DNA from: Henckelia pumila
Lineage: Eukaryota > Streptophyta > Magnoliopsida > Lamiales > Gesneriaceae
DNA: 64,000 bases
Assembly: GCF_033568475.1 (NCBI RefSeq)
Contig: NC_133123.1
Coordinates: 7,369,001-7,433,000 of the forward strand
Direction: 5' to 3'
Below are positions 2,784-52,360 of the stretch, piece after piece (position 1 is the first letter of the stretch; each line of letters opens with the position of its first letter). The notes below the pieces were generated by a model. That model saw only the letters and a program-made list of their open reading frames with translations, was not told the origin of the DNA and did no database searches. The position numbers were made by a program, and so were the translations under genes.

Positions 2784-2791
2784 CATAGAAG

Positions 2792-26292: not shown

Positions 26293-26301
26293 TAAAAATA
26301 A

Positions 26302-26447
26302 CAGCAAATTTGTGATAAATCCCTACTAGTAAACATAAATTCCTCCTCAGTCTCCAAGTCAGCAATTATTTGTTCTAAATCCCTGACATAAGGCTGCTAT
26401 TTGTTACAACTCCCTATTTGGGTCAGTTTACAAAAATGCCCCTAAAA
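26302..26447 (+). repeat. MULE left terminal inverted repeat
   Basis: It starts CAGCAAATTTGTGATAAATC and matches the reverse complement of the right end over 146 bp at roughly 80 percent by eye, with identical blocks such as TTTGTGATAAATCCCT, ACTCCCTATTTGGGT and TTTACAAAAATGCCCC. The protease gene's ATG lies about 150 bp inside it, so the repeat probably contributes its promoter. Confidence 0.92.
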
Positions 26448-27981
26448 TTTATTTAAACACCCAACACTATCCCTCACTTTATTTTTCAAATAAACAAAAA
26501 ACAAGAAAACAGGGACGATCGGTAGTTTCCCTCCATCACCCAACCGATTCTTCCCGCAAGAAAGCAGTGATCTTTTGTGATAAGTTTTTGAGATCAGAAA
26601 ATGGCACCGTTGACTAGAAGAAGCAAACACTCAAAAGATAAGTCAGTTGAAGGAGCTTCTAGAGTCCGGAAGAAAAAGAAATCTAGCACGGTGAAGAAGT
26701 CGAAAAAATCAAAAATAGGTAAACCATGTTTTAAATTTGTTAAATTGGCCGCTATATATGATTACTCTCTCGAGTAACTGAGAAAAAATTTTTCGTTTAG
26801 AGGAATAATTTGGTCCTCATTGTAAAAATCTTTAATATTTATGTGTTTTCATTATTTTTAGGGTTTCGTGGCTCAATTGTCTTAGTACCGTTCTTGTTTG
26901 CATATATTTGTCGAAACATTCGCATCATTATTCCTAAATTTTGTATTTAATTTTGACAGTTCCTCAGTTTAAATTATTTATCCCCAATTTTTAGGGTTTT
27001 GTTCTTGAAATTGTTTTTGAAGTATATCTTCGTAAATGAATTCTATATTGTTATGTTGTTGTGATGTTTGTGATTTATTGAATATATATTCAATAATGTT
27101 ATATTGTTGAAGACAATTGATAAATTTATGTATAAAAGTATCCAATTGTTCCCAAATTTGAAGTTTTTGTTATTTTCCATGCAATATTCCATTATGTTAT
27201 TTTTATAATGTAAAATTTTTGTAATGATTTTTAAATATTAGAAATGGCTGATGAAGAGGAAATATGTGATGATTTTGAGTCGATCAAAAGTGGCAAGGTT
27301 ATATTTACTCGATGTTCTCCCGCTTATTGTAAAAAAATAATGGAGGAGTAGAAGGTGGTCATAGGGAATGAACAAATGAGCAGAATAAAAGAAACTCTAT
27401 TCGGTAAATGGATAGACATGCCTGTTCTACCTGTGAGTAGTGGCAGGGTTGACTATCTGTTTAAAAGATTTGATAGTCCTTCATGCTCGTTCGTTGTTGG
27501 TGGCGATATTTCCATTCCTTTCACATCAAGAGACTTCTCAATCGTGCTTGGTTTGCATCAGAGAGGTCAACAAGTTGATCTGGACCTCAAGCTTGAATCA
27601 AGCTTTCTGTCTCGGCATTTCGGAGGGAAAATAAGCAACACTCATATGATCGTTATAAAAAAGAAGCTTGTTTTCCTTGCGAGTAGTAATGTCGAAGCTG
27701 ACATTGATGACTTTGTTCGAATGTTCATTTTGTTCATATTTAATTCTGTAATATTCTCGACTGGTAATTACATTACTCCTGCTTTTATCTTTCCCTATAT
27801 TGATGAACTGAGCACTTTTTTTGAGTTTGGATGGGGAGATGCTGCATTTAGGTTTTTATACCGAGAATTGGACAATCAAGCGAGTAAATTGTATTTGGAT
27901 GGTTGCACGGCTGGTTTGATGGTTAGTATATAATTATCTGAGTTATTGTGCTATTAATTTGTTGAATTTGTTTACTTATAT

Positions 27982-30044
27982 TGAAACATCTAATAATAAT
28001 AAATGCGGAATTTTTTTTTTATTAAAATACTAATTAAAATAGATGTACATACATGCCCATACATATATGCACAAAAATAAACAGATTTAAAAATAGCTCA
28101 AATAAAATGCAACATTTAATAAATTAAATGTCTGAGTCATGCATTAAATAAAAATATTGTTCTAAACAATTAAATAAAAGTTTGCATGCACTGAAAATAT
28201 TTCAATAAAAATATGTACTAGTACCAACCACTGAAAATGAATAAAAAGAACGACATGTTTAATATTTCATAAAAACATAATCATAAAAACTCAGACGACG
28301 GCCGCGGGGGATCACTGCATGCCCACTCATATGTCCTCGCCTCCGGTGGGTACTATGTCCTCTACATACTCACCTGCACAATATCAGTGTAGTGAGCCTA
28401 GAGGCCCAATATGCTAACATAACAAGGATTTAAAATAATTTAAATCACTTTAATACTAATACATACCATATACATGAATGAGCATGCTTAAAATAATATC
28501 ATTGACATCACATAACTTAAATTAACTTAAATATCATAATCATACATAATACATAAACATTGTTGAGCAAAGTATTTTCTAACATCGCATGGTTGTATCC
28601 ATAGTGTAACCTTAAATCATACATCAAATACTGATCAGCGTGGGAACCAACGTACGTGGCGGTGACGAATCACCTCTTAAATTGGCAGTAAACTGCCCTT
28701 CAATAGTTCACATATGGGGACGAATCCCCCTTAAATTGTCACACTACTTCAACTTCCAACATAAAATTATTTTCTTTTGCTCAACCTTAAACATTAAATC
28801 ATGCATAAAATTATTTCATAAATGCATGCACTTAAATAAAATGTGTGTCCTTCATATATATTTAATTTAATTTCATACTAACATATAAATATAAAAAAAT
28901 AACTTCAATGCATAAAAATAATTAAATATATATTCAGGACACATGCAAATTTATCCTGGATTATACTGACTGCTGGCCCTAACACTCAAGCCCATTTACT
29001 TAAATCTGGTCCATTAACACTGAGACTGGCCCATTAACATACTTAAGCCCAATAAAAATCATTCTAAGCCCAATTAAATAATTAAAGCCCATTAAAACAT
29101 TCCTGGCCCAATTAACGACCTATTTTGGCCCAATGGGCCCAAAAGCCCAAAGACTGGCCCAATAACTTCCATGGGCCCCCAAGGCCCATAAAAATTAGTG
29201 GACTCACTTAATTAATTTAAATTAAGCCCAATAATAATTAAATTTAACCCAAATAATTAAATGGAACCCAAATCGCTTTATTTTCAATTAATTGGCCCAA
29301 AAAACCAATTAAATCATAAAATACTTTAAAATTAAAAAGACTCGAGTCCGGCCCACCTAACCCGGACCCGGACCAACTTAACCCGACCCACTACCATACT
29401 GACCCGACCCAGGCCATAGACCCAACCCGGAACCAACCCTAACCCTAAACCCGTTGCCCCATTTTCCCGTCTCGGCTGCGGCCGTAAGCAGCAACCACTC
29501 CTTGGCTGCTGCCGGCCAGCTTCGGCCGCCCCTAGCCGGAGCGCCGCCGCCCAGACGTAGCCCACGTCTGGGCGGACCTAACCTGCACCAGCCCCCAGCC
29601 CCATGCAGCCTGGACCCCCATCACCGAACCTCCTTCTCCAAAACCTTAAACCTGCGCACCCCTGGAACCCGATCGACCTAGCTTGTTTCCTGGGCTCTTT
29701 TGGCTCGAACCACTCGAGCCACTCGAGTCCAGACCACCCTCTCTCAACCTAGGGACCCCCGACCAGCAGCTGGGCGCACCATGGATGAAAAAACGTGAGT
29801 ATAGATGGAAGAAATACATGAATATGGTGCAAACAACAAAGCCAAACCATTTTCTGAAAAGTAAAGAAAAGTTTCGATGCATACACTTCACTTACATAAT
29901 ACATACTGATATGGTGTTTAAAAAGAAAGGAAAATCATGCACAAATAATTCACATAATAATTTAACCCATAATCTAAAATTTTAAATAAATAAATTTTCT
30001 AATTATGCATGCGAATTCACGTATTTAAAATACCGGGTGTTACA
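27982..30044 (-). repeat. Chromovirus LTR (3' LTR in element orientation)
   Basis: It is 2063 bp long, ends TG...CA, and is nearly identical to 34889-38306 minus the insert there. It holds three short perfect stem-loop sequences near 28650-28730, about a dozen GGCCCA/AGCCCA motifs at 28980-29300, and a GC-rich segment at 29340-29780. Confidence 0.9.
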
Positions 30045-30060
30045 ATTCTCCCCCCCTTAA
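30045..30060 (-). promoter_or_regulatory. Polypurine tract of the chromovirus
   Basis: Next to the 3' LTR, the minus strand reads AAGGGGGGGAGAAT, a typical second-strand primer tract. Confidence 0.8.
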
Positions 30061-30079
30061 ATTGGATTTCGTCCTCGAA

Positions 30080-33000
30080 ATTAAAGTACTTACCCGAACA
30101 ACTCTGGGTAGCGAGTCCTCATATCTGCCTCGGTCTCCCAAGTAGCTTCCTCCTCCGAGTGATTCAGTCACTGGACTCTGACCATCGGTATGACACGTGT
30201 CCTAAGCCTCCGCTCCTCCCTAGCCAAGATCCGTATAGGCCTCTCCTCAAATGCTAACTCCGGTGTCAACTGAAGAGGCTTAAAATCCAACACATGTGAC
30301 GGGTTCGAGATGTATCTCCGAAGCATGGATACATGGAATACATTGTGCACTGCCGCTAGCCCTGGTGGTAGAGCTAAACGGTAGGCCAACGTGCCAACTC
30401 TCTCCAAGATCTCGAATGGCCCTATATACCTCGGGTTAAGCTTGCCTCTCCGGCCAAATCGCACTACTCCCTTCATAGGTGACACCTTCAGGAATACGTG
30501 ATCACCTACAGCGAACTCCAAATCTCGTCGTCGAGTATCTGCATAACTCTTCTGACGACTCTGAGCAGTCCTCATGCGATCCCGAATCTGTGTCACAATA
30601 TCAGCTGTCTGCTGCACAATCTCCGGTCCAAGTAAAATCCTCTCACCAACCTCATCCCAATGCACAGGAGATCTGCATCTCCTCCCATACAATGCTGCAT
30701 AAGGAGCCATACCTATAGACGACTGAAAACTGTTGTTATAGGTAAACTCCACTAATGGCAGTCTAGTCTCCCACGAGCCCTGAAAATCGATGACACAAGC
30801 TCTCAGAAGATCCTCGAGAACCTGGATCACTCTCTCAGACTGACCATCTGTCTGGGGATGGAATGTTGTGCTGAACAAAAGTCTAGTCCCCAAAGCTGTG
30901 TGCAGACTCTTCCAAAACGCGGATGTGAATCTCGGATCTCTGTCTGACACAATCGACACTGGTATGCCATGCAGTCTAACAATCTCCTTGATGTAAAGCT
31001 CTGCATACTATGTCAATGAGTAAGTAGTCCTCACCGGCAAGAAATGAGCTGACTTGGTGAGTCTATCCACAATCACCCAAATCGCTGTGCAACCTCTGGC
31101 ACTCCTCGGTAAGCCAACCACAAAGTCCATCGTAATATTCTCCCATTTCCATTCCGGAATAGGAAGAGGTCTAAGAAGTCCTGCTGGACGCTGATGCTCT
31201 GCCTTGACTTGCTGACAAGTCAAGCACTCTGACACAACTCTCCCGATGTCTCTCTTCATCCCGGGCCACCAATACAATAGCTGCAAATCTCTGTACATCT
31301 TCGTACTTCCGGGGTGAATGGAATACGGAGATGTGTGAGCCTCTGCTAAAATCTCAGATCTCAACTGATCGACGTTCGGTACCCACATCCTACCACGGTA
31401 CTGAACAATGCCATCCACAACTGTATAAAGACGACCACCCTTGGCCTCATCTCTCTGCCTCCAACGCTGTAACTCCTCATCAGTAGTCTGTCCAACTCTG
31501 ATCCGATCTCACAGAATCAGCTGCACCGTCAACACTGACAAGCTCGGTGCATGACCACTCGAGTAAAACTCCAAATCAAACCTCTGAATCTCGCTCTGCA
31601 GTGGTAGCTGCACTGACAAACACGATACCACTGACGACTTCCGACTCAAAGCATCGGCCACTACATTAGCTTTACCTGGATGGTAGCTAATGTCACAGTC
31701 ATAATCCTTCACTAACTCCAACCATCTCCGTTGCCTCATGTTCAACTCCTTCTGAGTGAAGAAGTACTTGAGGCTCTTGTGATCCGTGAAAATCTTGCAC
31801 TTCTCGCCATACAGATAGTGCCTCCAGATTTTCAAAGCAAAGACCACTGCTGCTAACTCCAAATCATGTGTCGGGTAGTTCTGCTCGTGAATCTTCAACT
31901 GCCTCGACGCATAAGCAATAACCTTACCACACTTCATAAGTACTGTGCCTAAACCTAGCTTAGACGCGTCGGTGTACACCACTAACTCCTCGTGCGGTAC
32001 TGTCATCGCTAAAACCGGTGCGATAGTGAGTGCTTCCTTCAGCTGATCAAAGCTCCTCTGATAGTCTGGACTCCAAATAAACTTCGTATTCTTCTTGGTT
32101 AAGGAAGTCAAGGGTACTGCAATAGAGGAAAAACCCTTGATGAACTTCCTATAATATCCTGCCAAACCCAAGAAACTGCGAATCTCCGAAGCATTCCTCG
32201 GAATACCCCATTTTTGCACTGCCTCAACCTTCGACTGATCCACTGCAATCCCATCTCTCGAAATAACGTGGCCAAGAAATGCCACCTGCTCGAGCCAAAA
32301 CTCGCACTTGCTGAACTTGGCATACAAACGATGCTCCCTCAAAGTCTGCAAGGCTGTCTGCAGATGCTGTCTATGCTCCTCAATGCTCCTAGAGTAGATC
32401 AAGATATCATCAATGAAGACTATTATGAACTGATCAAGATACGGCTGAAAAACTCGGTTCATGAGATCCATGAAAACCGCTGGAGCATTGGTCATCCCAA
32501 ATGGCATCACCAAGAACTCGTAATGCCCATAACGTGTCCGAAAAGCAGTCTTGGACACATCTGCCTCTCTAACTCGCAGCTGATGGTAACCAGATCGCAG
32601 GTCGATCTTGGAGAACACCGAAGCTCCCTGCAACTGATCAAATAAGTCCTCTATCCTCGGCAGTGGGTACTTATTCTTCACTGTGACCCTATTGAGCTCT
32701 CGATAATCGATGCACAGTCTCATACTGCCATCCTTCTTCTTCACAAATAACACTGGAGCTCCCCATGGAGAAAAGTTAGGACGAACAAAGCCTTTCTCTA
32801 ATAATTCCTGTATCTGCTCCTTCAACTCTTTCATCTCGGTAGGAGCGAGTCTGTATGGTGCCTTAGATATAGGCACGGTGTCTGGCACTAAGTCAATGCT
32901 GAACTCCACATCTCTCACTGGTGGAATTCCTGCAACATCCTCCGGAAAGACATCTGGAAAGTCACAAACCACCTCTATCTCTGATAATGATCTGCTAGAT

Positions 33001-33430
33001 GGTTCTGAGGCCGTGACAATACTCGCTAGAAACCCCTGGCAACCCCGTCTCAACAACTTCCTCTCCTGAATAAGAGATATCACCTGAGGAAAATCACTGC
33101 TCTGAGATGCATGGAAAGTAAACGGGTCGCCTCCTGACGGTTTCACTGACACTGACCTCCGACGAAAATCAATCGAAGCTCCATTGACTATCAACCAGTC
33201 CATACCCAATATCAAATCAAAGCCGCTTAACGGCAAAACCACTACATCTGCGCGAATGGAGTGTCCCTGTAGCTCTAACTCCAGCTCTCGGATGACACTA
33301 GAGGTAGTAATAATCTGTCCTGACGGCATAGTGACATCATAACCACTGTTGGCAATCTCCGGTGTGATTCCTATCCGTCTGATGAACTCTAGGGAGATAA
33401 ACGAATGCGTAGCCCCTGAATCTAGCAACG
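30080..33430 (-). mobile_element. Chromovirus pol region
   Basis: It shows an aspartic protease signature ([10 protein letters not shown]), reverse transcriptase ([20 protein letters not shown]), RNase H ([20 protein letters not shown]), integrase with an HHCC-type finger and core ([19 protein letters not shown]), then a chromodomain-like C-terminus (SEEEATWE). This order and the chromodomain place it among chromoviruses. It is a fossil copy with a few breaks. Confidence 0.9.
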
Positions 33431-33649
33431 CAAACGTGGAGTTACCTCTAACTAGAATTCTTCCTGCACGCAGAAAATTCCCAATAATTTCATGCCACTA
33501 CTAAACTTTCCCCCAACGAGACACTAATAACCCTTAATTCTAATCACAAGTAAAACATGCTTCTTATTCTAACATACAGATAGATAACCCAAATAACCAC
33601 AATTTCGCAAGAAAACTAGATTCTTAACCAAAGGAAAAATTGTAAAATA

Positions 33650-34717
33650 CTAGGGATAAGATATACCGGTGATCAAGGAGGTGTCTGGGTCTGCCTCCTC
33701 TGCCTGCATGACGAACACTCTACCAGCCGTGTTCTTCTTCCTCGGGCAGTTAGCTATCTGGTGCCCTGGCTCTCTGTAGTGGTAAAAAACTCCTGCTCCC
33801 AACAAAAAAGGTCCCGAATGCATCTTCTGACACTTCGGGCAAGTAGGAAAACCTATAGCATTAGGGGCCCCGCCCCTCTGCTGCTGTGGCCTCTGCTGCT
33901 GCGGCCTCTGCTGCGGATTCGGGCCCTTAGCCGGCCCAGTAAACTGTTTCTTCGCAGGAGGCTGCGAAGGTGGTCGCTGATACCCCGACTGAATCTGTCT
34001 CTTCCCCTGCTGCTCTCGCTGCATCTCTCTCCTACCCTCCTCTGACCTCAGTGCTCTACTAACTGCCGCCTCATATGTAGCGACGTCCATCATACATACG
34101 TCGTGCTTGATATCCGCTCTCAGTCCCTCCACAAACTGCCTCATCTTCTCCGGTGGACTGTCTGCAATCAGAGGCACGAAATGACAGCCCCTCTCGAACT
34201 GGCTCACGTACTCAACCACTGACCTGTCCCCCTGCCGGAGACTCATAAACTCCCGGATCATGCGACTCCTCACATCCTCCGTGAAATACTTGGCGTAGAA
34301 GACACACCTGAACTCCGCCCAAGACAGTGTAGGGAGGTGTACTCCCCTGACAGCACCCTCCCACCAAAGAGCTACGTCTCCCCTCAACATATACGTCGCA
34401 CAGTTCACCCTGTCCGCATCTGTGATTCCCATATATGCAAAGATGGACTCCAAAGAATGAATCCACCCCTCAGCCACCAATGGATCGGTGGTACCAAGGA
34501 ACTCCTTTGGCCCCTTCTTCTGGAACCGCTCAGCTACGTCCTCCTCATGGGACATTCTGGGACGTGAAGCCTGCTGCTCTAACAGAGAAGTAACTCCTGC
34601 CATCAAAGTAGCATTGGCCTGCTCCAATGCTGCAAGTGGGTTCTGCGGAGGTGGAGGTGGAGGTGTAGATTCCCCACGTCTGTTCATCGGTCTGGGAGGC
34701 ATTCTGCACCACCACAT
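33650..34717 (-). mobile_element. Chromovirus gag region
   Basis: A capsid-type domain (WWEGAVRG, FYAKYFTEDVRSRM, FMSLRQGDRSVVEYVSQF) is followed by a Gln/Pro-rich linker and a zinc-knuckle-like C-terminus. These are typical of the gag of plant Ty3/gypsy elements. Confidence 0.88.
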
Positions 34718-34874
34718 ATTTTTTACGTAAATCGAAATGCATAACTAAGTGTTTTAACATTAATGCTAACTTAAATTCTTAAAAGTAAATCATGCTATAA
34801 ACACTTAAAACTTACAGACCGGTAGCGTGGATTTCTGAGCTCGCATAGCAGTGATGACCCCACCAAGAACGCGT

Positions 34875-34885
34875 CTCTGATACCA
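34875..34885 (-). promoter_or_regulatory. Primer binding site (initiator tRNA-Met)
   Basis: On the minus strand TGGTATCAGAG lies three bases inside the 5' LTR. This matches the 3' end of plant initiator tRNA-Met and fixes the element's orientation. Confidence 0.88.
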
Positions 34886-34888
34886 ATT

Positions 34889-37800
34889 GAAACATCTAAT
34901 ACTAATAAATGCGAAATTTTTTTTATTTATTAAAATACTAATTAAAATAGATGTACATACATGCCCATACATATATGCACAAAAATAAACAGATTTAAAA
35001 ATAGCTCAAATAAAATGCAACATTTAATAAATTAAATGTCTGAGTCATGCATTAAATAAAAATGTTGTTCTAAACAATTAAATAAAAGTTTGCATGCACT
35101 GAAAATATTTCAATAAAAATATGTACTAGTACCAACCACTGAAAATGAATAAAAAGAACGACATGTTTAATATTCCATAAAAACATAATCATAAAAACTC
35201 AGACGACGGCCGCGGGGGATCACTGCATGCCCACTCATATGTCCTCGCCTCTGGTGGGTTGACCGGCTAAATCGGTTTGATAAAAATCTACTGGCAAGCG
35301 CACCAGGTCAAGTAATAGTAAAGTGGACTGAGAGTCCAAGTATCGATCCCACAGGGACTGCAGTCAATTCTCAAGAATTAATTATTTTACTTAATCTAGA
35401 CAAAATAATAGAAGGATTTTGAATTAAATAAAATAAGAATATAAAATAAAAACTGATTAAGAAATAAGAATAAAAATAACTGAAGATAAAAATAATTAAG
35501 ACAAAGACAACCAAGACACACGTAGGTACCGAACAAATCACGTAACATGTAGTCGATTCAGGACTCAGATTTAATTTTAATTCATGGGAATTCTCCTAGT
35601 TTGTTCAAAGGTCTATTTCTAGAACAATCAAACCTATTCAAATATTGATGAACTAATCTTTCGTAATTCTAATCAAATTTGAATGCATTAAATATTTGTG
35701 AAAATTCAGTTTACACCTAAACCGCACACTGAAACCGAATTCTATTTCTAGTCGGTTTTACAATATGTTAATTATCAGAGTGATCAAAATCAAAACCTCC
35801 TCTGTCGATTTGGAATTGATTAACATGCAAGCAAACAGTTGATCAGACTATTCACAAGATAAATATAAATCTGACAATCAATAAAATAAAATCAACTCTA
35901 AAAAATCCCAAACAAACATCCAAGTTTTTTACATAAATTTGTTCAGCCCAATCACGCCGTCTTGGTTGAAAATAAACTACTCAATAATTAAAAACAATAA
36001 TTCAAAAATAAAAATAAAAAGAAGAAAAGAAAGAATAAATCTTCTTTCCCAAGCCTTGTAGCCGCCTCCTCTGTGTTCTCTGCGCTCTGGAGCTTCCGAA
36101 ACCCTCAAAAATATGTTATATCTTCTATATATATGGTCCGGAACGCCTATCAGTTAATTTCCTCCCAAAACAAGGACTTTCGGAACACATATGACCCCCG
36201 AACACGCGCGCGTGCGCGGCATTAGGCCTCGCGCGCGCGCAGCACATAAAAACAGAGGCCTGTACGTCGGAATCGCGCGCGCGCGAGCTTGATTCTCGCG
36301 CGCGCGCAGTACAAAAAATCTGCGCCGAGCGATAATTTTCAAAAATTCATATCTCGAGATCTAGCCGTCGGATTGAGCTGAAATTTGGACAGCAGCTTCA
36401 AAACATCTTTAACTTTAATCTGAACGGTAAAGATTGGATTTCAATGTCTCTAAAATTAAATATGATTTTTCGATCAAGGCTGCTCCGTAATTCACTCTTC
36501 AAAATTCCATTTTCCTACAAAATTAACCCAAGGAGTGAAATACACACACATGCACTAAAACACATAAAAATAATATGAATGCACACAAAATAAACATAAA
36601 AATAACATGAAATAATGCATACAAAATGCACTTATCATGGGTACTATGTCCTCTACGTACTCACCTGCACAATACCAGTGTAGTGAGCCTAGAGGCGCAA
36701 CATGCTAATATAACAAGGATTTAAAATAATTTAAATCACTTTAATACTAATACATACCATATACATGAATGAGCATGCTTAAAATAATATCATTGACATC
36801 ACATAACTTAAATTAACTTAAATATCATAATCATACATAATACATAAACATTGTTAAGCAAAGTATTTTCTAACATCGCATGGTTGTATCCATAGTGTAA
36901 CCTTAAATCATACATCAAATACTGATCAGCGTGGGAACCAACGTACGTGGCGGTGACGAATCACCTCTTAAATTGGCAGTAAACTGCCCTTCAATAGTTC
37001 ACATATGGGGACGAATCCCCCTTAAATTGTCACACTACTTCAACTTTCAACATAAAATTATTTTCTTTTGCTCAACCTTAAACATTAAATCATGCATAAA
37101 ATTATTTCATAAATGCATGCACTTAAATAAAATGTGTGTCCTTCATATATATTTAATTTAATTTCATACTAACATATAAATATAAAAAAATAACTTCAAT
37201 GCATAAAAATAATTAAATATATATTCAGGACACATGCAAATTTATCCTGGATTGTACTGACTGCTGGCCCTAATACTCAAGCCCATTTACTTAAATCTGG
37301 CCTGAGACTGGCCCATTAACATACTTAAGCCCAATAAAAATCATTCTAAGCCCAATTAAATAATTAAAGCCCATTAAAACATTCATGGCCCAATTAACGA
37401 CCTATTCTGGCCCAATGGGCCCAAAAGCCCAAATAATGGCCCAATAACTTCCATGGACCCCCAAGGCCCATAAAAATTAGTGAACTCACTTAATTAATTT
37501 AAATTAAGCCCAATAATAATTAAATTTAACCCAAATAATTAAATGGAACCCAAATCGCTTTATTTCCAATTAATTGGCCCAAAAACCAATTAAATCATAA
37601 AATACTTTAAAATTAAAAAGACTCGAGTCCGGCCCACCTAACCCAGACCCGGACCAACTTAACTCGACCCACTACCCTACTGACCCGACCCGGAACCAAC
37701 CCTAACCCTAAACCCATCGCCCCCTTTTCCCGTCTCGGCTGCGGCCGTGAGCAGCAGCCACTCCTTGGCTGCTGCCGGCCAGCTCCGGCCGCCCCTGGCC

Positions 37801-38306
37801 GGAGCGCCGCCGCCCAGACGTAGCCCACGTCTGGGCGGACCTAACCTGCGCCAGCCCCCAGCCCCATGCAGCCTGGACCCCCATCACCGAACCTCCTTCT
37901 CCAAAACCCTAAACCTGCGCACCCCTGGAACCCGATCGGCCTAGCTTGTTTCCTGGGCTCTTTTGGCTCGAACCACTCAAGCCACTCGAGTCCAGACCAC
38001 CCTCTCTCGACCTAGGGACCCCCGACCAGCAGCTGGGCGCACCATGGATGAAAAAATGTGAGTATAGATGGAAGAAATACATGAATATGGTGCAAACACA
38101 AAGCCAAACCATTTTCTGAAAAGTAAAGAAAATTTTCGATGCATACACTTCACTTACATAATACATACTGATATGGTGTTTAAAAAGAAAGGAAAATCAT
38201 GCACAAATAATTCACATAATAATTTAACCCATAATCTAAAATTTTAAATAAATAAATTTCCTAATTATGCATGCGAATTCACGTATTTAAAATACTGGGT
38301 GTTACA
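34889..38306 (-). repeat. Chromovirus LTR (5' LTR), carrying a nested insertion
   Basis: Without the 1378-bp element at 35260-36637 and its 5-bp duplication, it is about 2.03 kb and matches the LTR at 27982-30044. Confidence 0.9.
35260..36637. mobile_element. Solo LTR nested in the chromovirus LTR
   Basis: A 1378-bp block starts TGACCGGC, ends CTTATCA and is flanked by the 5-bp repeat TGGGT (35255-35259 and 36638-36642); the other chromovirus LTR has the empty site. No coding region or second LTR is present, so it is a solo LTR or a small non-coding LTR element. It contains GATCCCACAGGGA, a motif I associate with plant LTRs, and CG-alternating tracts at about 36200-36310. It is the youngest insertion event visible here. 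Confidence 0.85.
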
Positions 38307-40175: not shown

Positions 40176-42999
40176 TGTAACACCCGGAAATTTTAATACG
40201 TAAATTCGCATGCATAATTAAGGAAATTGATTATTTAAAAATTTATATTTGGGTTAAATGACATTTATGTGTTATTATGTGAATTATATGCATGATTTAA
40301 ATTTATTTTATCATTTAACCCGCAGTTATTGTATTTTTAGAATTTTAAGAATTTTATTGAGTTGATCGCGTAGACGGGACCGTGGACGGACGAGATACCA
40401 ATATTTTTTAGCCAAAAATATTTTATGAGTTTTATGAGGCTTAAAATATTATTTTAATGTATTTTGTCAAGAAAATTTTAGTATTTATTTATATATTTAT
40501 TTAAGAGTTGATTTTTAGCCAAAATAAGTCATTTTAATGACTTTTATTAATTTTTAAAAATACTATAAATTAGTATTTCGGGATTTTAATTTATTATCAG
40601 ATTGGTAAGTATTTTAGGAGTTTAAAATGTTATATTTTATGATTATATTATCTACCTAATAAATTTATACCAATTATTGACCTATATCTACCCAAAATAA
40701 AACACTCCCTACCCTACGTTGTCTCCCTTAGCCGCCTTCAACCCTCTCCTACCCTCATCATCAGATTTTCAGAATTTTTTCAACCTCCATAGCCGATTCT
40801 TCAAGGATTTTTGGTGGTTTTTCATTCGTTCGTCGTCCCGGAGCCCCGAATACGCAATAGTCCTCGTATTTAATTTAAAAGGCATGTCTAAAACTTTTAT
40901 TTGGCCACCATATAAGCTATTAATCATGCATGACGTGTTTTATATCAGACTTTTCATGGAAATTTAGAGTTTATGCATGTATGCTTTGTATTGATGCATG
41001 TTCTTGCTTGTTTGGGTCATGATTCACGTTTTTGCCAAGCATGGTATGGTCCAGGGCTGAGGGCTCGAGTCAGAGGGGTCCCAGGGTGCCTTAGGGTCGA
41101 GTTTGTTCAGAGTTTTAAGGTGTCATAGGCTGGAAACAAAGCTATTCACTTCTGATGCACACAGACGCGCAGGTTAGGGCTTTGGGAAAAGAGGGGTCGT
41201 TCTCCTTCCTCAGGCCATGGATTTGTGCGTGGTTTGTTGGGTTTAAAAGATTTAGATGTTGGATAAAATTGAGAAGTGGTTTCACGGTCTTTGGTTGTCG
41301 GAGGAAGCCGCACGAACAAAAGTTTGGCGACTGCTCAGTCTGCGCGCGAGGAGGAGGAAGGCGTCTGGTGCAGAGCTTCGTTCTCACTCCTCGGGCCATG
41401 GTTTGGTCTGATTCTTGTTGTGTTAGAACCCCCTGGATGTGGGCTATCCATGGGCGGTGGTGCTCCGGCCAGGGGCGGCCGGAGCAGGGCGGCAGCAGCC
41501 ATGGAATGGCTACTGCTCGCCCAGCCGAGAAGAGAAGGAGAGGGGTGATCGGGTTTGGGGTTTGGGGGGGTTTCTGGGTCGGGTTATGGGTCAGGGTTGA
41601 GTGCTGGGTCGGGTAAGGTAGTCATGGGTCGGGTTAAGTCGGTCCGGGTCCGGGTTAGGTGGGCCGGGCTTGAGTATTTTAATTTTTAAATGTTTAATGT
41701 TTTAATTGGTTTTTGGGCTAATTAATTAGAAATAAAATTATTTGAACCTCCAAATAATTTTATTTGGGACTTAAATAATTTATTTAAGTTAGCACAATAA
41801 TTTTTTATGGGCTTGGGAGCCCATGAGAATTTTTGGGCCAGTCAGTGGATTTTGGGCCAGTCTAGAGTTTTATTGGGCTTAAGTTAAGTAATTGGGCTTA
41901 AATATTTTATTTAGATCAAGTTAAGTTTAATTAAGTTATTTGAGCTAAAATATGATTATTGGATTTTATCTAAGTTTAATGGGCTTAGAGTGAGTGATCA
42001 GCAGTCTGGACCAACCCATGAAAATTAACTAAGTCCGGAATATATATTTAATTCTTTTTTTTATGCATGAAGTTTATTTTAAGTATAAGTATATTTATTA
42101 TTAAAATTAATTATATATATATTACGGACATATTTTAAGTGCATGCATACATGAAATATTTTATGATGTGTTTATGATTAAGAATTGAACATGAAAAATA
42201 TTTTTATGGAAATTGAAGTGGTGTGACAGCACAGAGGTGGTTTACCACCGGCACAGAGGTAGTTTTACTACCGACATAGAAGTGGTTTTACCACTGGCAC
42301 AGAGGTAGTTTACTACCAGCATAGAGGTGGATTTATCCACCGCCATGTACGATGGTTCTTAGACTGATCAGTCGGCACAGTTATTAGTCACATTCATGGA
42401 TATGACCATACTCAGTTTTTATGATTATGACATGCTCAATTATGTTATGTATGATTAGTTATGATGTATGTACGACTGATGATGAATAATTTTTATGATG
42501 CATTTATTTTAAGATCATGCATGCATGTCCACGTAAGTTATATGTATTAGTATGATTATGTGATGCATTATTTTAAACCTCGTTATCAAGGATTAGACAT
42601 GTTGAGCCTCTAGGCTCACTATGCTTATATGGTGCAGGTGAGTATGATGATGTCTATGTAGCTCCTACCGGTGGCGATGACGTATGAGCTCACGGAGCAG
42701 TGGACCCCGTGACCGTCGCAGTTATTTAGATTATTGCATTGAGTTTTGAAACATGATTTATTTTACTATTGTTTTCGCGTATGAGATTTTTCAGCAGTAT
42801 TGTTTATAATTTTAAATTGATGCATGAAACATTTTTAAAGATTTATTTATTTAATATTTTTTTTAGGTTACTCAAGAAAAGTATGTTATTTTTATATACA
42901 TATATGTATGGGCGTATATGTATAGTATTATTTTTAGTATATTAAAATAAAATAAAATAAAAAGTTTTTTTTCCGCATTTATTAGTAGTAGATGTTTCA
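40176..42999 (+). mobile_element. Solo LTR of a chromovirus-related family, inside the protease exon
   Basis: A 2824-bp block starts TGTAACACCCGG, ends GATGTTTCA and has a perfect 5-bp repeat ATAGC on each side (40171-40175 and 43000-43004). Its ends, GC-rich core (CCAGGGGCGGCCGGAGC) and TGGGCC-rich part resemble the LTRs at 27982 and 34889, but it is longer and clearly diverged. It has no internal region. It interrupts the Ulp1 domain of the MULE protease gene just before the catalytic-His segment. Confidence 0.88.
42230..42345 (+). repeat. Five 22-24-bp stem-loop repeats in the solo LTR
   Basis: Five consecutive units alternate GGTGGTTTACCACC-like and GGTAGTTTACTACC-like stem-loops, each preceded by CA(C/T)AGA(G/A). 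They occupy the same part of the LTR as the three hairpins of the related LTRs. Confidence 0.8.
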
Positions 43000-43496
43000 A
43001 TAGCAGAGCGCATTGGTTTCTGCTAGTGTTTCACGCAAAGGAAGGGGTGTTCAAAATGTGGAATTCACTTCCCAATTCGTTCAGCCTAGGGGCATGTAGA
43101 ACGTTGGTGAGTTTTCGTTGTGTCATGTTATGTGAATTGTATAAATGTGTTTTGATAATATTTATCTTTGAAGGCACGTTTTTTGGTTGGTTGGGTTCGT
43201 CATCATTCAAATTTCATCATACACGACTCCGCTGTGTTGAGGGAACGTATGCGTCATCAAGGTGAAACACTTGACTGTGGTGTTTATGCATGCATGTGGG
43301 TAGAGTGTCTAGCTCGTGACTCAGATGAAATGTGGACATATCAAAATACTGTGAAGATGGACACCTATCGTGCAAGACTGGCTGCAAGTATTTTATGTCA
43401 CGAAAGGGGAATGCTGAAAAACAACTTTGATTAACATGTATAGTCTTTGTATGCTTTTATGGTTTATGGAGATACAGTATGTAAGTATGTTTAAAA

Positions 43497-45898
43497 ATTG
43501 TGCCCCACTTTGTCTATGGTGTAGGAGGAATACATTGATAATTCACCATTTGTGGATGTCCACTAACAACCAATGTATACTATTGTGGTATATTTTCCGA
43601 ATTCCATACTTGAGAGTTGCTTGATGTGATTTATTCTAGTCTAAGACACCAATTTGTGGACTTTCACTTGGTATAATTTCACTCTTCTATAATAACACGA
43701 GACTCTGAGATCGAGCACAACTAGTAAACAATAATGGGATAATTGTCACTTAATAGAGAACAATTCGTTCTGATTGTAGGACATACATTGTGTGACATGA
43801 GGATCTCACTCTCCTATTGGAAGTGTCTTTGGATCAAAATGTCAGTTATGTAGAACAATTACATATAAATTGGGAATAATCCTCCCGAAATATGGCACAA
43901 TATGATTTGTCCTTGTGAACATGCTCCAATAATTACATATAAATTGATTGTGGTGTTTTTGCATGCATGTAGGTAGAGTGTCTAGCCCGTGACTCGGCTG
44001 AGATGTGGGAATATCAGAATACAGTGAAGATGGACACATATCGTGCTCGACTGGCTGCAAGTATTTTATCACACTCCCCTAGTGTAAGTATCTTAGAATC
44101 AAAATGTCAGTTATGTAGAACAATCCAATATGAATTTGGAACCATCACCCAAGTGTTCCACTCCAATATGGTACAATACGGTGCATGACACAAGTGGAGA
44201 GGAGTGTTCAATCCTTAGAGATTGGTGGAACCATCACCCAAGTGTTCCAATTGTAGGACAAACACTTGTTTAATATGATTTTTTCTCGTCTTTAAGGACA
44301 ATCATTTACTCTAATTCCACTCATTTTTAAAAATAATTCAGTGAGAGATCGAGCACAACTAGTACGCATGGATGAGATAAATATTATTTAATCGAGAACA
44401 ATTCGTTCTGATTGTAGGACATACATTGTGAGCCATGAGGATTACACTTTCCTACTGAAAGTGTCTTTGGATCAAAATGTCATGTATTAGGAACAATCTT
44501 TGAATTATGAAGAATAATCTTTTTCATATGAGGAACAATAAGGCATGTCCATGTTAACATGCACCAAAATCATATAATACACTGCATGACACAAGTGGAG
44601 AGGTGTGTTCAATCCTTAGAGATTGGTGGAACCATCACCCAAGTGTTTGTCTAGTAATGTATTGTGCTCTACATTGTCTAAGGTGTAGGAGAGAGACATT
44701 GATCATGACCCAATAAGAGCACCATTTGTGGATGTCCATTGCCACCCAATGTATATAATATGGCTATATTGTCCGAAATCCAAACTCATTACTTGTTTAA
44801 TATGATGTTTTCTCGTCTTTAAGGACTATCATTTACTCTAATTCCACTCATCTTTAAAAACAAGTCAGTGAGAGATCGAGCACAACTAGTACGCATGGAT
44901 GGGATAAATATTATTTAATCGAAAACAATTCGTTCTGATTGTAGGACATACATTGTGGGCCATGAGGATTACACTTTCCTAGTGAAAGTGTCTTTGGATC
45001 AAAATGTCAGTTATGTAGAACAATTACATATAAATTGAGAATAATCCTCCCGAAATACGGCACAATATGATTTGTCCTTGTGAACATGCTCCAAGATTGT
45101 ACAATACGCTGCATGACACAAGTGAAGAGGATATTTCAATCTATAGAGATTGGTGGAACCATCACCCAAGTGTTTGTCTTGTAATGGCTTGTGCCCCACT
45201 TTGTCTATGGTGTAGGAGGAATACATTGATAATTCACCATTTGTGGATGTCCACTAACAACCAATGTATACTATTGTGGTATATTTTTCGAATTCCAAAC
45301 TTGAGAGTTGTTTGATGTGATTGTTTCTCGTCTAATACACCAATTTGTGGACTTCCACTTGGTATAATTCCACTCATCTATAATAACACGAGACTCTGAG
45401 ATCGAGCACAACTAGTAAACAATAATGGGATAATCGTCACTTAATAGAGAATAATTCGTTCTGATTGTAGGACAACCATTGTGTGACATGAGGATCTCAC
45501 TCTCCTATTGGAAGTGTTTTTGGATCAAAATGTCATTTATGTAGAACAATTACATATAAATTGAGAATAATCCTTCCGAAATACGGCACAATATGATTTG
45601 TTCTTGTGAACATGCTCCAAGATGGTATAATACGCTGCATGACATAAGTGAAGAGGATATTTCAATCTATAGAGATTGATGGAACCATCACCCAAGTGGT
45701 TGTCTTGTAATGGCTTGTGCCCCACTTTGTCTATGGTGTAGGAGAAATACATTGATAATTCACCATTTGTGGATGTCCACTAACAATCATTGTATACTAT
45801 TGTGGTATATTTTTTGAATTCCAAACTTGAGAGTTGTTTGATGTGATTGTTTCTCGTCTAATACACCAATTTGTGGACTTCCACTTGGTATAATTTCA
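43497..45898. repeat. Tandem array, period about 527 bp, roughly four units
   Basis: The landmark ATCGAGCACAACTAGTA occurs at 43710, 44348, 44875 and 45401, and TTGTGCCCCACTTTGTCTAT or a close variant at about 43499, 44660, 45188 and 45715. Spacing is 526-527 bp except for one 638-bp step, which carries a copy of the protease exon piece. Units differ by point changes and small indels. The array starts just after the protease stop codon and is cut off at about 45898 by the truncated LTR. Confidence 0.85.
43947..44070 (+). pseudogene. Duplicated fragment of the Ulp1 active-site exon
   Basis: This block repeats the region 43270-43400 of the protease gene: it reads DCGVFACM, then a stop in place of Trp, then VECLARDSAEMWEYQNTV and ARLAASILSH. 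It sits in the longer step of the tandem array and has no start codon or protease N-terminal half, so it is a duplicated gene fragment. Confidence 0.8.
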
Positions 45899-48300
45899 CC
45901 CAAAAATATTATTTTGAGTTTTTTTGCCTCAAAATTTTTAGTATTTAATTTTATATAATTTTAGGAGTCCATTTTTATTCAAATTTAGCCATTTTAATGA
46001 CTTTTAATTATTTTTAAAATTCCCTTAATTTGTAATTTCGGGATTTTTATATTTTTAAATTGTGTTATCAGATTTTAACTTTTATTTGAAAGATTAAGTT
46101 GTATATTTTTATATTTAAAACCTTTTTTCTATATTTAATTAACCTATATTTTAATTAAAACAAAAACCAAACCTAATCTACCCAAACCCCACAACCGATT
46201 CCCTTCACTCAGCCGCCTCACCCCACCATCTTCATCATCTTCTTCGGCCAGACATCTCCAAGGAGGTTTCATAGCCGAGTTCCTTCGAAACTTTGAGTGT
46301 TCGTCGTCCCGTCGTCCCGGAAACGTTCTACGTACGTTGCTCAATCGATTTCTTCGGTGCAAGGCATGATTTTCTTCCATTTTTCGTACCTATCAGATAT
46401 TATGTTGTGTGGATTGTGTATGCATCGAAAAATTTCAAGTTTTTCAGAAAATGGTTCGGTTGTTTCGGTTTTATGCGCAAGGTTCCTTGTTTTCCTTTTT
46501 CATGTTCACGTTTTCAGGTCCACCATGGCTGGTATGGCTGATGGTCAGAGTCCTAGGTAGTGTGAGGAGGGTCTGGACCGAATGGCTCGAGTGGCTCGAG
46601 CCAAACGGCCCCAGGAAGTCGGCTGGTGCGGATCGGCCTCCCTTGGTGCACAGTCTAGGGTTTCGGGAAATGGGCTTCGGGTTCGGTGGTCCAGGCTGCA
46701 TGGGTTAGGTTTAGGGGCCAGGTTCGAACCGCCCAGACGTGGGCTACGTCTGGGCGGCGGGGCTCCGGCCAGGGGCGGCCGGAGCAGGGCGGCAGCAGCC
46801 CTAGAAGGGCTGCTGCTCGCGGCCGAGGGGAGTTGAGGGTAGGGCAGTTCGGGTTTTAGGGTTTGAAGGGTCCGGGTCGGGTGGTTAGGTCCGGGTCGGG
46901 TCAGTCAAGTCTCGGGTCAAGTTAGTTGGGTCCGAGTCCGGGTTAAGTTAGTTGGGCTCGGGTATTTTTATTTTTAAGTTTTAAGTTTAATTAAAGGTTT
47001 AATGAGCCTAATTAAATCTTAAAATATTATTGGGCTCCATTTAATTATTTTGGGTTGATTTTAATTATTTGGGATTTAAATTAATTTAATTAAGTAAGTC
47101 CAATAATTTTTATGGGCTTTAGGGCCCGTGAAAGTTATTGGGCCAGTCTTTGGGCTTTTGGGCCCATTGGGCCAGAATTGGTTGTTAATGGGCTTTAATT
47201 ATTTAATTGGGCTTAGAATAATTTTATTGGGATTAAACATGATAATGGGCCAGATTTAAGTAATTGGGCTTGAGAGTAGGGCCAGCAGTCCAGTACAATC
47301 CATGAGAAATTTGCATGTGTCCTGATTATATATTTAATTATTTTTATGCATTGAAGTTATTTTAATATTTATATGTTAGTAAGAAATTAAATTAAATATA
47401 TATGAAGGACACACATTTTTAATTAAGTACATGCATTCATGAAATAATTTTATGCATAATTAAATGTTTAAGGTTGAGCAATAATAAAATATTTTATGTT
47501 GGAAGTTGAAGTAGTGTGACAATTTAAGGGGGATTCGTCCCCATATGTGAACTATTGAAGGGCAGTTTACTGCCAATTTAAGAGGTGATTCGTCACCGCC
47601 ACGTACGTTGGTTTCCACGCTGATCAGTATTTAATGTATGATTTAAGGTTACACTACGGATACAACCATGCGATGTTAGAAAATTATTTGCTCAATAATA
47701 TTTATGTAGTATGTTATTTAAGTTAATTTAAGTTATGATATGTTATGATATTTCTAAGCATGTTCATTCATGTATATGTTATGTATTAATATTTAATTGT
47801 TTTAAATTATTTTAAACCCTTGTTATGTTAGCATGTTGGGCCTCTAGGCTCACTACACTGGTATGGTGCAGGTGAGTTCGTAGAGGAGGATGTAGCTCCT
47901 ACCGGCGGCGAGGACATATGAGCGGACATGCAGTGACCCCGTGACCGTGTTAGATGTCTGAGTCACATTGCATGTTTTTGATTATGTCAGCATGTTACAC
48001 ATTTTATATTATTTTTCAGTGGTTGTGAGTTTTGAATATTTTATTGAATATTGTCAGTGCATGCAAATTTTTAATCATTTTATTTATGCAGTACTTTTAA
48101 TTAAATGTTTGACTCAGATATTTATTTTATTTAAAGAATGAAATTTTTTATTTAAGTTATTTATTTATTTATTTTAAATCTTTTTATTCTGTGCATGTAT
48201 GTATGGGCATATATGTGCATATTTTATTTAGTAAGTATATATAAAAAAAAAAAAAAATTCCGCATATTTATTTATTAATTATAGAGTTAGGGTCGTTTCA
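45899..48300 (+). mobile_element. Left-truncated LTR, chromovirus-related family
   Basis: It ends TCGTTTCA like a complete LTR of this family, and contains the CCCAGACGTGGGCTACGTCTGG palindrome in the GC-rich core, TGGGCC-type motifs and the three-hairpin segment (about 47525-47600). Its left end corresponds to a point about 240 bp inside the solo LTR at 40176, and no target duplication is seen. A deletion therefore removed the left end together with some MULE sequence. Confidence 0.8.
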
Positions 48301-48465
48301 TGATGAGCTCCCGAAAAGAAGATGCACCTTCTTGATATGAGCAGTACATATGAAATCTTTTAAGCCCTCCTCAACTATGTAGTCCCATACCTACACAGTC
48401 TCAGAATCCCCTCTCATTCCGGCACGGGATTGGTTCATTCATGTCTCCCTCCGCCTAGAAGCCTA

Positions 48466-50847
48466 CTAGGAGCCACTCATTTTCCGTGCAACCTCTTGGT
48501 ACCGGCGATCACTCCCTGCCTCCTCAGCCCCGGGCGTCACAACAACGACCACATGTTGAGACACGTGTATTAACTTGCGATGGTATTCTCTTCGTCCTTC
48601 TGCGACCGGGCTGACTACGCACAGAAGGAGCTTGATTGTATCGGATTCAGCAACACATGACTCACTGATGTCAAAGGTTGGGATAGGATTAATATGTCCT
48701 TTGTACGCAGTGCGATACGATTCGATCTTGAAATACTTGTCACAAAAATCATACACAGACAGAGATTTTGTCTCAATGGCAGAAATGGCGTGCTTGCACG
48801 GAATCTTATTGATCTGCCAAACTCTGCATGAACAAGTCATATCCACTAAATCCACGGCAAATGACTTTTCACCATCAACAACCTCAAACTTCCAATCACA
48901 CGACCGCTAAACTCTTAATGTTCGGGATTCCATATATGCGCTTACAACAGACTTTTCTTTTCTTGGACTTAATTCCTTGGTCATGAACAGAGTTGATTCA
49001 CGTCGTCGGTGCATCATTTTCATTATCTGCACACGTATGTGATCAACCATAGCAACAATAGGCAGATGACGAGCTGGCCTAACCCAACTATTCCAACACT
49101 CGGCTATATTGTTATTTATAACACCCCATCTATTGCCAACAAACAATGCATTGGCTCAAATCTGTGGATCAGAATTTACAATAAACCCTCTGGCAAGTGA
49201 CATTGACTCTAATATATTGTTTATATGTTGCTCGTACTCTTGAAAAGACGGAGCATACGCAACTTTCTTGAATACCGAAGACCAATGTGTTTTGTTATGT
49301 CTGGGATAACTTCTCAACACCTAAAAAGATTAATAAAAATTTAGATCCAGCTTAAAATTATCAGATAATATGAGAAATTTAAATTAAAATTGCTCAAGGA
49401 TTCGTAATTTGGAATTTACCTGCTTAACGAAATTATCCACTAAATGTCTCAAACAATAAGCATGGTGACTCCCAACAAATACTTGATTCACTGCCTTGAT
49501 GATACTGGGATGTCTGTCCGAGAAAAATGTGAACTCGTCGAATGGAATGCATTGATAGTAAAGGAGCACACGACTCAAATGATAACAAAACCAATCCTAG
49601 TTCGCATCATTCTCCGCATCTACTATGGCATAAGCAATTGTGAAAAGATCATCGTTCGCATCTTTCGACACAGCAACTAAGATGCATCCTTTATACTTAT
49701 TCTTTATATGAGTACCATCCAAAAATATCAATGGCCTACAACCACTAACAAAACCGACGACACATGCATGAAAACAAATGAACAACCGTCTGAATTTTTT
49801 AGTCAAAGGTTCAATCTCACACTCTACAACACTACCAGGATTAGTATTTTTAACAGCATCACAATACCATCTTAATCTATCATAGCATCCTTCATCTGTG
49901 CCATGAATATCATGCATCGCCAACTCTTTACCCTTCCACACTTTGCGGTATTCTAACTCTACCCCGAAATCTCTTTGCAAGTCCATCTGCATTGTACACG
50001 GATGATAAGAGGGCTCCCCTCTTAATTTTTCTTTCACAACATTCGCTATCCAATAGGCATCGGCTCTAGGATGCCCTCTGCTACGTAGATTATTCTCACC
50101 ACAATTATGTTGCAGTTTACATTTTCTGATGGCAAATAGATTGTCTCTTTTATGTTTCGAAGCATAAATTCTCCAACCGCAGCTCTTTTCACTACAAATC
50201 ACAATTACATTCTCGCTGTCATTTTTTACATACATAAATGAACGTCTTGTGGCAACAGAAAAGTTTTTCAAATAATTCCTAAATTCACCAGCACCTTTGA
50301 ATGTTTGTCCTACACCATGAATACAATTAATCTAGGCATCTATAGTATTGGCGCAAGGGGGCTGTTCAACCTCGTTGTCACTCTTCGACTGCGTGTCTTC
50401 CTCATAAACCCTTACAGTTTAATTTACATTTAATAAGATAAAAAAGAACAATAACCACAAAAACAAATTGATAATGACTAAAAATAAATCTTGATTTCAA
50501 GCAACTAATTGATAATTTATACAAAGCAATATACAATATTTTACCTTTAATTTTTTATATTAAATATGTTACTAAACATATCGAAATAGGAGAATGAAAA
50601 TATACGTTTAATAATAAGTAAATGAATTTTACCTCCCATCATTCAAGTTGTTGAACTGTTCATTTCTTTTCTCTGCCCTCAATTCAATCGTCGTAAGCTT
50701 TACACACATATGAAGATGAATCATATTAAGGACATCATCATCATCATTCAAAGACACAAGCATCTTATGCAGTGGAGCTACGTATTGAAGCATAGTGGAT
50801 TCCAGAGATATTTCTGCACATTTTTTGCTCAGACTAGAAAAAAACAT
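48466..50847 (-). pseudogene. MuDR-type transposase of the MULE
   Basis: Segments from right to left: an N-terminal MuDR domain piece (50847-50629, with LNDDDDVLNMIHLHMCVKLT), then a block from about 50420 to 49420, an intron (49419-49321), and a block 49320-48466. Visible features are the FLYWCH-like start (SCGWRIYASKHKRDNLFAIR, HNC), DDE acids in FLDGTH and FSDRHPSI, the Glu in IAECWNSW, and a SWIM zinc finger C-S-C...C-K-H (CSCRVWQINKIPCKH). In-frame stops occur at 50332-50334, 49597-49599, 49155-49157 and 48907-48909; two replace an expected Trp. The protein would bind the terminal repeats and cut and paste the element. It is dead in this copy, though the domain order is complete. Confidence 0.85.
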
Positions 50848-50952
50848 CCGTCAAGCTACAACCACTGAAAATTGATATGACAAACAGCTGCTTCTTGAAT
50901 TTACAGCAACCCAAAAATGAAAGATTGCAAGGACCACTTCCAGATTCCATCC

Positions 50953-51570
50953 TCAAATTACAAAAGGGGCATGCTCTTCAATACAGTAAATCGAAGCAAT
51001 AATATATTTTTTCATCATATATTACACACAAACAGTACAAAATAACAAATTCAGAATACTAGATTTTAATTCAAATAATTTAAATCACAATATAAATGTA
51101 ATAGTACTGAACTAAAACCCCAAAATTAAGAATTAAAACATTATAATCGAGAATAATACGAAATATATGCTTATATATCACAAATGCTCATGAAATGAAC
51201 TGCATTCCCAGCAACAAACGTAAAAATTGATATTGGTAAGCTAGTCTGTAAAACTTCATTCTCAAACTACAAAAGGGGAATGCTCTTCAATACAATAAAT
51301 CGAAGTAATAATATATTTTTTCATCATATATTACACATAAACAGTACAAAATTTCAAATTCAGAATACTAGATTTTAAGTCTACTAAATTAAATCACAGT
51401 ATAAATGTAATAGTATAGAACTAAAACCCCAAAATTAAGAATTAAAACATTATAATCGAGAACAATACGAAATATAAGCTAATCTATCACAAAAACTCGT
51501 GAAATGAACTGCATTCCCAGCAACAAACGTGAAAATTGATATTAGTAAGCTAATCTGTAAAACAAACGTG
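50953..51570. repeat. Tandem duplication, two units of about 309 bp
   Basis: AAAAGGGGCATGCTC at 50962 recurs as AAAAGGGGAATGCTC at 51271, and similarity extends through ACTGCATTCCCAGCAACAAA and beyond. Together they fill most of the space between the transposase N-terminus and the right terminal repeat, where its promoter or leader would lie. Confidence 0.85.
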
Positions 51571-51950
51571 ATGCCCGGAAATTCAACACCACCTCTATAA
51601 TCATAAAAAATCTCAAACAATTCCATCAATTCAACATTTTAAATTTGTAAGTCATACATCAAGCCGTGACAATAATTTATTCACTCCAAATTTATAAGAT
51701 TTCAAATCTAAAAACTAACCTGCAAATATGTGAAAATTTCCGTTTCAGCACAAAGATGGGAAATTCCCTCAACCCACGTCAATGTAGATCTTCAACATTA
51801 CCCGAGTAAACACAGATCTGCGACTTTGGTTGATGGATTAAACGTTTAAGATTGAGAGAAGAAAAGATTCGGGAGAGGAGAATCAAGAAGAAGAAACAGA
51901 GGGAAATAACGATTACAGTGGAACAATCCTGTTTTTTTTTTCATAAATCA

Positions 51951-52096
51951 TTTTAGGGGCATTTTTGTAAACTTACCCAAATAGGGAGTTCAAACAAAGA
52001 GCAGGCTTTTATCAGGGATTGAGAACAAATAATGTCTGAAACGGGGACTGAGGATGAATTCGAGTTTACTATGAGGGATTTATCACAAATTCTCCC
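51951..52096 (-). repeat. MULE right terminal inverted repeat
   Basis: Reading inward on the minus strand it starts GGGAGAATTTGTGATAAATC and matches the left repeat over the same 146-bp length. The transposase reads away from this end. Confidence 0.92.
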
Positions 52097-52360
52097 TAAA
52101 AATAATATTATAAATTTAAAATAGCTTTTTTTTTAAAAAAAAAAAAAAAACATAAATAATAACGATTAAATAGTGCCGTCGAGTTCGAGTTCGACTCAAG
52201 ACATGCATTTGAATGATGCAGCAATATGGGCAGCTGAAGATTCCACTGATTCAAGCAAATTATTCATGAAACTGGTTCCAGGTATCCAGATAGTTCATTA
52301 CAACATAGAAAAGTACACCCAACTTATATAAGTCATAAGATGCTTCGTCGAAATTTCGAT

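Follow-up and report, generated by a model that had tools for sequence, protein, structure and literature searches.

The window analysed here comprises 64,000 nucleotides of the 885-Mb Henckelia pumila genome (C4:7369001-7433000), and its positions 26302-52096 are occupied by a Mutator-like transposon (Mutator-like element, MULE) with both ends, as the first-pass annotation of this DNA had held. The terminal inverted repeats (TIRs; left 26302-26448, + strand; right 51950-52096, - strand) were compared by aligning the 400 bases at the left end with the reverse complement of the 400 at the right end (BLAST), which gave 122 identities in 142 ungapped positions (~86%, E 7e-46). The alignment runs from base 6 to base 147, and the outermost five bases are unlike (CAGCA vs GGGAG). 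Directly outside stand two perfect copies of a 9-bp target duplication, TAAAAATAA, at 26293-26301 and 52097-52105, a length within the 8-11 bp described for MULEs (PMC6446971, cited, like all articles below, from excerpts). Between the ends, exons with DUF1985 and Ulp1-like C48 protease domains lie on the + strand and face a MuDR/MULE/SWIM transposase on the - strand (50841 down to 48634), an opposition that had also been annotated correctly. The transposase matches PF03108 at E 1.8e-16, and its sisters elsewhere in the genome hold PF03108, PF10551, and PF04434 (Pfam). All four motifs that we take to be the catalytic D, D, CxxH, and E motifs of MULE transposases (FLDGTH, FFSDRHP, YCLRH, and NNNIAE) are present in the window copy.

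The same ends recur in the genome. The left end has 17 matches at an identity of at least 96% (among the best 40 of 192 candidates) and the right end 17 at an identity of at least 94% (best 40 of 221), and for 16 of the 17 left ends a suitably oriented right end lies on the same contig; a left end at C4:202736895 and a right end at C79:1977580 lack a partner. The spans are 11.25-12.41 kb for eleven of the 16 pairs and 16-62 kb for copies E, N, W, J, and O. We read 13 close copies (A, B, C, D, F, G, H, I, K, L, M, N, and W) and four of a second subfamily (R, S, T, and U). An exact 9-bp duplication of their own flanks 12 of these 17 (A, B, C, F, G, I, K, L, R, S, T, and W), those of B, C, and S falling in homopolymer or AT runs; N and M have one only as a pair, and D, H, and U have none. 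The close copies are 97.2-98.4% identical pairwise, with no pair standing out, and would fit a single burst at ~2% pairwise divergence. The 300-bp left flanks of D (on C2) and B (on C77) are identical and the right flank of D is unlike, which could reflect a segmental copy, recombination, or an assembly artefact.

It could be argued that the two ends are unrelated repeats that flank host sequence by chance, as the flanks of the window copy are unique and no empty site displays the state before insertion. The sister copies refute this reading, to which we give practically no weight: they lie at unrelated places and share both ends and the interior order, most with duplications of their own, and chance is set aside because both ends recur together in 16 of the 17 close copies. 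A search with the termini as queries, proposed along with the annotation, recovered other copies sharing both ends and so did not refute it. For the window copy no empty site was found because the flanks are single-copy (in the genome search, neither of the two 300-bp flanks has a full-length match other than itself). The joined flanks of copy G gave a dispersed-repeat match on the left and no junction-spanning site among the best 40 of 578 candidates.

The annotation called the window element a full two-gene copy, which proved wrong. Close sisters carry three genes, namely, a DUF1985 and C48 protease gene (+), an open reading frame (ORF) resembling a GRF zinc finger protein (GRF-like, +), and the transposase gene (-). 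In the window copy, the DUF1985 exon (27235-27930, +; located by tblastn with sister H) has one internal stop and matches PF09331 at E 3.4e-7 with 30.8 bits, under the cut-off of 35.1. The linker between DUF1985 and C48 is a 324-aa open frame without a Pfam match (38666-39640, +), at the position equivalent to that in sister H. A remnant of the first C48 exon (40038-40175, +) ends before the catalytic His, 243 bp being absent at 40053 relative to the sisters, and the C48 exon with the Gln and catalytic Cys motif (QGETLDCGVYAC; QGETLDCG) follows at 43225-43407 (+). The protease gene is thus broken by the stop in its DUF1985 exon, the 243-bp deletion, and a solo long terminal repeat (LTR) inserted at 40176. 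Where sisters A, H, I, and D have ~1.45 kb of sequence with the GRF-like gene, the window copy has instead a segment (45903-48541) that holds a truncated LTR (46364-48277). The transposase gene consists of a partial N-terminal exon (50656-50841, -), a main exon with the MuDR DNA-binding and MULE domains and two stops (49387-50358, -), and an exon with the SWIM zinc finger and one stop (48634-49155, -). The window copy is decayed and dead, and was mis-described as complete.

The order of the three genes is not peculiar to the close copies. We searched the genome with a transposase piece, the DUF1985 exon, and the GRF-like ORF and retained the best 150 of 1226, 625, and 249 candidates, respectively; the resulting counts are rough lower bounds, and some GRF-like matches are two pieces of one gene. 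A transposase match lies within 30 kb of 77 of the best 150 DUF1985 matches, convergent in 77/77, whereas random placement gave a mean of 0.4 such pairs and a maximum of 3 in 200 runs. A GRF-like match lies within 30 kb of 75 of the best 150 DUF1985 matches, always downstream on the same strand (75/75), and 86 of the best 150 GRF-like matches have a transposase match within 30 kb, convergent in 85. Full triplets were found for 48 of the best 150 DUF1985 matches. Nevertheless, the third gene is not universal, since no GRF-like match was found in the relatives X1 and X3; a third relative, X2 (36% identical), has one. The name GRF-like is all that we give this gene because the full ORF of sister H has no Pfam match, its first 73 residues match PF06839 below the cut-off (E 0.053, 14.1 bits vs 25.9), and the ORF of X2 has no Pfam match. 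A literature search combining "GRF zinc finger", transposon, and Mutator returned no paper in the collection consulted, which does not show that the gene is unpublished.

Among known systems, the closest in gene content are the Kaonashi elements (KI-MULE/KIU; Hoen et al. 2006, via PMC6117577, PMC2528002, and PMC13317346), in which a C48 (Ulp1-like) gene also lies opposite mudrA, is one of three genes per element, and is related to DUF1985/VANC (review PMC13317346). The kinship that the annotation had suggested is thus borne out by gene content, the named KI proteins being compared by description alone. However, Arabidopsis KI-MULEs are described as non-TIR (PMC2528002, PMC13317346), whereas the ends here are TIRs of ~147 bp, alignable over 142 bp, and those of X1 measure 383 bp. 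For this reason, the element appears closer to the TIR-bearing ULP MULEs of melon (van Leeuwen et al. 2007, via PMC2528002), and we class it among the KI-related TIR MULEs that carry ULP rather than as an Arabidopsis-type KI-MULE. Grapevine MULEs also carry a ULP gene, and opposite gene orientation is reported (PMC2528002); however, the excerpt of that article mentions neither a GRF-like gene nor an intergenic array. VANDAL21 and VANDAL6 resemble the element in their DUF1985 accessory protein, VANC, and in rapidly changing noncoding tandem repeats, but VANC21 combines DUF1985 with DUF287 and not with C48, and the VANC binding motif is known, whereas none was found in this family (PMC5735166, PMC10398659). 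By gene content, and as far as descriptions allow comparison, the element belongs with the known KI-MULE/KIU and VANC elements. In the excerpts consulted, we found no published description of the GRF-like gene or of three features treated below, namely, a ~526-bp array that varies between subfamilies, a divergent centre, and a 27.9-kb dimer.

Taken together, the element is very probably a dead member of the TIR-bearing Mutator-like DNA transposons of KI/KIU type, and in the mechanism that we favour its DUF1985-C48 protein would have played a VANC-like role. In its living ancestors, as the ends and duplications of the sisters show, the MuDR-type transposase (-) acted on the ~147-bp ends to move the element by cut and paste, leaving 9-bp duplications. 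These ancestors also coded for the DUF1985-C48 protein (+) and, in this group, usually for the small GRF-like protein (+). VANC proteins are described as containing DUF1985, and the motifs that they target as lying in noncoding tandem repeats which vary from one related element to another (PMC5735166). According to a review, VANC genes that carry Ulp1 (KIU) cause related elements to lose methylation (PMC13317346). By analogy, the DUF1985-C48 protein may have served as an anti-silencing factor, binding the noncoding DNA of its element, perhaps at the ~526-bp array, and removing silencing marks. The 2026 review states that the role of the Ulp1 domain in plant transposons is unknown (PMC13317346); possibly, C48 strips SUMO or a related tag from silencing proteins at the DNA of the element. 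After one burst at ~2% divergence, the window copy then took LTR insertions and deletions.

The competing view, that the protease gene is captured cargo in the manner of Pack-MULEs and has no function for the element, draws on the stops or interruptions present in most copies and on the DUF1985 ratio of nonsynonymous to synonymous polymorphism (pN/pS) of 0.70 within the burst. We hold it to be very improbable, because the three-part arrangement is fixed across divergent subfamilies (all 77 close pairs noted above being convergent) and because the protein appears constrained between them. The ratio of nonsynonymous to synonymous substitution rates (dN/dS), given for H, X1, X2, and X3 wherever dS was computable, is 0.11-0.26 for DUF1985 (5 of 6 pairs), 0.15-0.50 (4 of 6) and 0.17-0.29 (3 of 6) for the first and second C48 pieces, and 0.08-0.16 for the transposase main exon (3 of 6). 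These low values point to purifying selection on the protease gene along with the transposase. For the GRF-like gene, dN/dS is 0.53 for H-R and 0.09, on 56 codons, for H-U, and no divergent pair was computable. The active-site His of C48 is kept in all 18 rows that cover it and the Cys motif in 17 of 18, and the C48 exons of sister H match PF02902 (E 7.4e-7 and 0.0016). The DUF1985 domain was matched in 8/8 members at E up to 0.01 (best 2.3e-7), the first member scoring 30 bits, under the curated 35.1.

Several observations nonetheless weigh against the explanation that we favour. In most between-subfamily pairs dS is saturated, and in several it is undefined. Pooled within the burst against H, pN/pS for the seven pieces is 0.70, 0.30, 0.42, 0.99 (GRF-like), 1.27, 0.59, and 0.73, the C48 values being lower; values from 0.3 to 1.3 indicate that copies decay after insertion. 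The Cys/Gln region is degenerate in X2, the one strongly divergent relative. The position that we take from Ulp1 to be the catalytic Asp is Asn in both W-like subfamilies (those of H and of R) and in X3, and Asp in X1 and X2. The predicted structure of the DUF1985 exon reaches a mean confidence score (pLDDT) of only 57.7, and no solved relative of this exon was found by sequence at E up to 0.1. Finally, exact 7-9-mers in noncoding DNA, with arrays partly collapsed, were not enriched beyond shuffles, the standouts in H being diverged array copies, and among 8-mers with one mismatch shared by the array and other noncoding DNA the best z was 4.6 (TAGTAAAC), against a shuffle maximum of 4.9. The motif tests thus give no support to the array part of the mechanism. 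Nor do open frames prove a working copy: sister H is open in every exon tested, yet one SWIM cysteine is lost and Asp replaces Gly in FLDGTH.

The array itself lies directly behind the protease gene (43498-45902 in the window copy, where the remaining part has four anchors) and includes a partial copy of the last protease exon (43271-43396 and 43944-44069). There are 3-6 anchors in the 13 close copies, and U has 2, T 4, R 6, and S 9. A tree of 46 units, whose bootstrap support has not stabilised, places most units of the second subfamily in one group and the amplified unit type of the close copies in another, except that S_4623 falls with the close-copy type and D_5396 with the second subfamily. 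Noncoding tandem repeats also vary between more distant relatives. The complete relative X1 (9,720 bp, 383-bp TIRs, duplication ATATTTAAT) has an unrelated 209-bp array of 5.9 units at the matching position, and X2 has a ~123-137-bp repeat ahead of its protease gene (no TIR was found in the stretch of X2 examined, and its ends may lie outside). There is a little under an even chance that the array is no binding target and that slippage during replication, or else unequal crossing over, produced it where the protease gene ends: it includes part of the last exon, its unit numbers vary as slippage predicts, and enrichment is absent in both motif tests. Against this stand the unrelated array at the matching place in the divergent X1 and the published accounts of VANC targets, which depict them as arrays of this fast-changing sort (PMC5735166, PMC10398659). 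A second repeat, a ~309-bp tandem duplication upstream of the transposase gene (50948-51563, 92% alike), recurs in W and in all ten sisters given to Tandem Repeats Finder.

When H is compared with R, S, T, and U in 300-bp steps, near-identical ends surround a divergent centre, which is 70-83% alike except in part of the array. By step, identity is 90-96% up to 2400, mostly 55-87% over 2401-4500, 90-95% from 4801 to 5700 (part of the array), 70-88% over 5701-7500, and 87-98% from 7500 to the end, with one lower step at 9901 (83-91%). Synonymous differences between H and R number 5/187 in the transposase main exon, 25/137 in DUF1985, and 19/50 in C48 (Fisher test against the transposase, p 2e-6 and 1e-10, respectively). 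For this one subfamily pair, exchange between lineages would fit better than uneven constraint. We can only speculate, and think it rather unlikely, that the centre (the 3' part of the protease gene, the array, and the GRF-like gene) might be an exchangeable anti-silencing cassette, with DUF1985-C48 and its own binding array swapped jointly between transposase lineages. If so, cassette exchange would let each subfamily escape silencing on its own.

Copies N and M stand head to tail with 2 bp between them, and AAAAAACAA flanks the 27,895-bp pair (C1:111730310-111758204). No second such junction (0-9 bp apart, exact pattern) was found in the genome, and N and M do not resemble each other more closely than other copies do. 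Insertion of M into the flank of N with a standard 9-bp duplication does not fit the sequence. Insertion into the right duplication of N with only 2 bp (AA) duplicated does fit, so that movement of the dimer in one piece is not required. IS256, whose transposase is kin to those of MULEs, forms tandem dimers and circles with head-to-tail junctions and short spacers, but these measure 5-8 and 19 bp, against 2 bp here (PMC7780238). An IS256-like tandem dimer and an insertion with an unusual 2-bp duplication are equal alternatives.

From a biological perspective, the window copy is an ordinary member of a known and interesting kind, and the scientific interest lies in its sisters. In one plant, a recent burst has left near-identical copies with three genes, and there are also older subfamilies whose reading frames are open and arrays of more than one type. 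This set makes testable the recognition of its own array by DUF1985-C48, the joint change of protein and array, and the suspected escape from silencing.

The present length of the window copy is largely due to LTR elements. A 10.3-kb Ty3-type retrotransposon (27982-38306, -; target duplication TATAT), delimited against sister H, entered behind the DUF1985 exon at 27982, as judged from sisters A, H, I, and D, and has gag, protease, reverse transcriptase, RNase H, and the integrase zinc-binding domain in order. Its LTRs lie at 27982-30044 and 34888-38306, the second holding a 1.38-kb insertion of unclassified kind (35255-36637). The solo LTR (40176-42999, -; target duplication ATAGC) lies just ahead of the active-site His, and the truncated LTR described above has no clear target duplication at its edges. 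These three entities make up 15.1 of the 25.8 kb, or 58%, in line with the earlier estimate of about 60%; the fourth of the four nested LTR elements then counted was not confirmed, the unclassified insertion being found instead. The Ty3 LTRs differ at 41 of 2034 sites, and the window copy diverges from sisters H, I, and A by 1.6-2.5% (the right-end row of copy F, at 10.9%, was left out as mis-registered). As the two divergences are similar, the burst and the LTR insertion appear close in time; a rate of 7e-9 would give about 1.4 million years.

Around the element, none of the five flanking ORFs examined has a Pfam match. A 749-aa open frame lies ~3.3 kb to the left (20705-22954, -), without a Pfam match at E 0.001. 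The adjoining stretch at 52365-57124 is a tandem duplication of ~2 kb, 77-88% alike, with a 125-aa open frame on the - strand that has no Pfam name. An inverted repeat of ~420 bp, 76% alike and with its two copies 58 kb apart, encloses the element (2340-2755 and 60299-60718), and short local direct or inverted repeats lie outside it at 1676-2246, 7189-7530, and 25212-25463.

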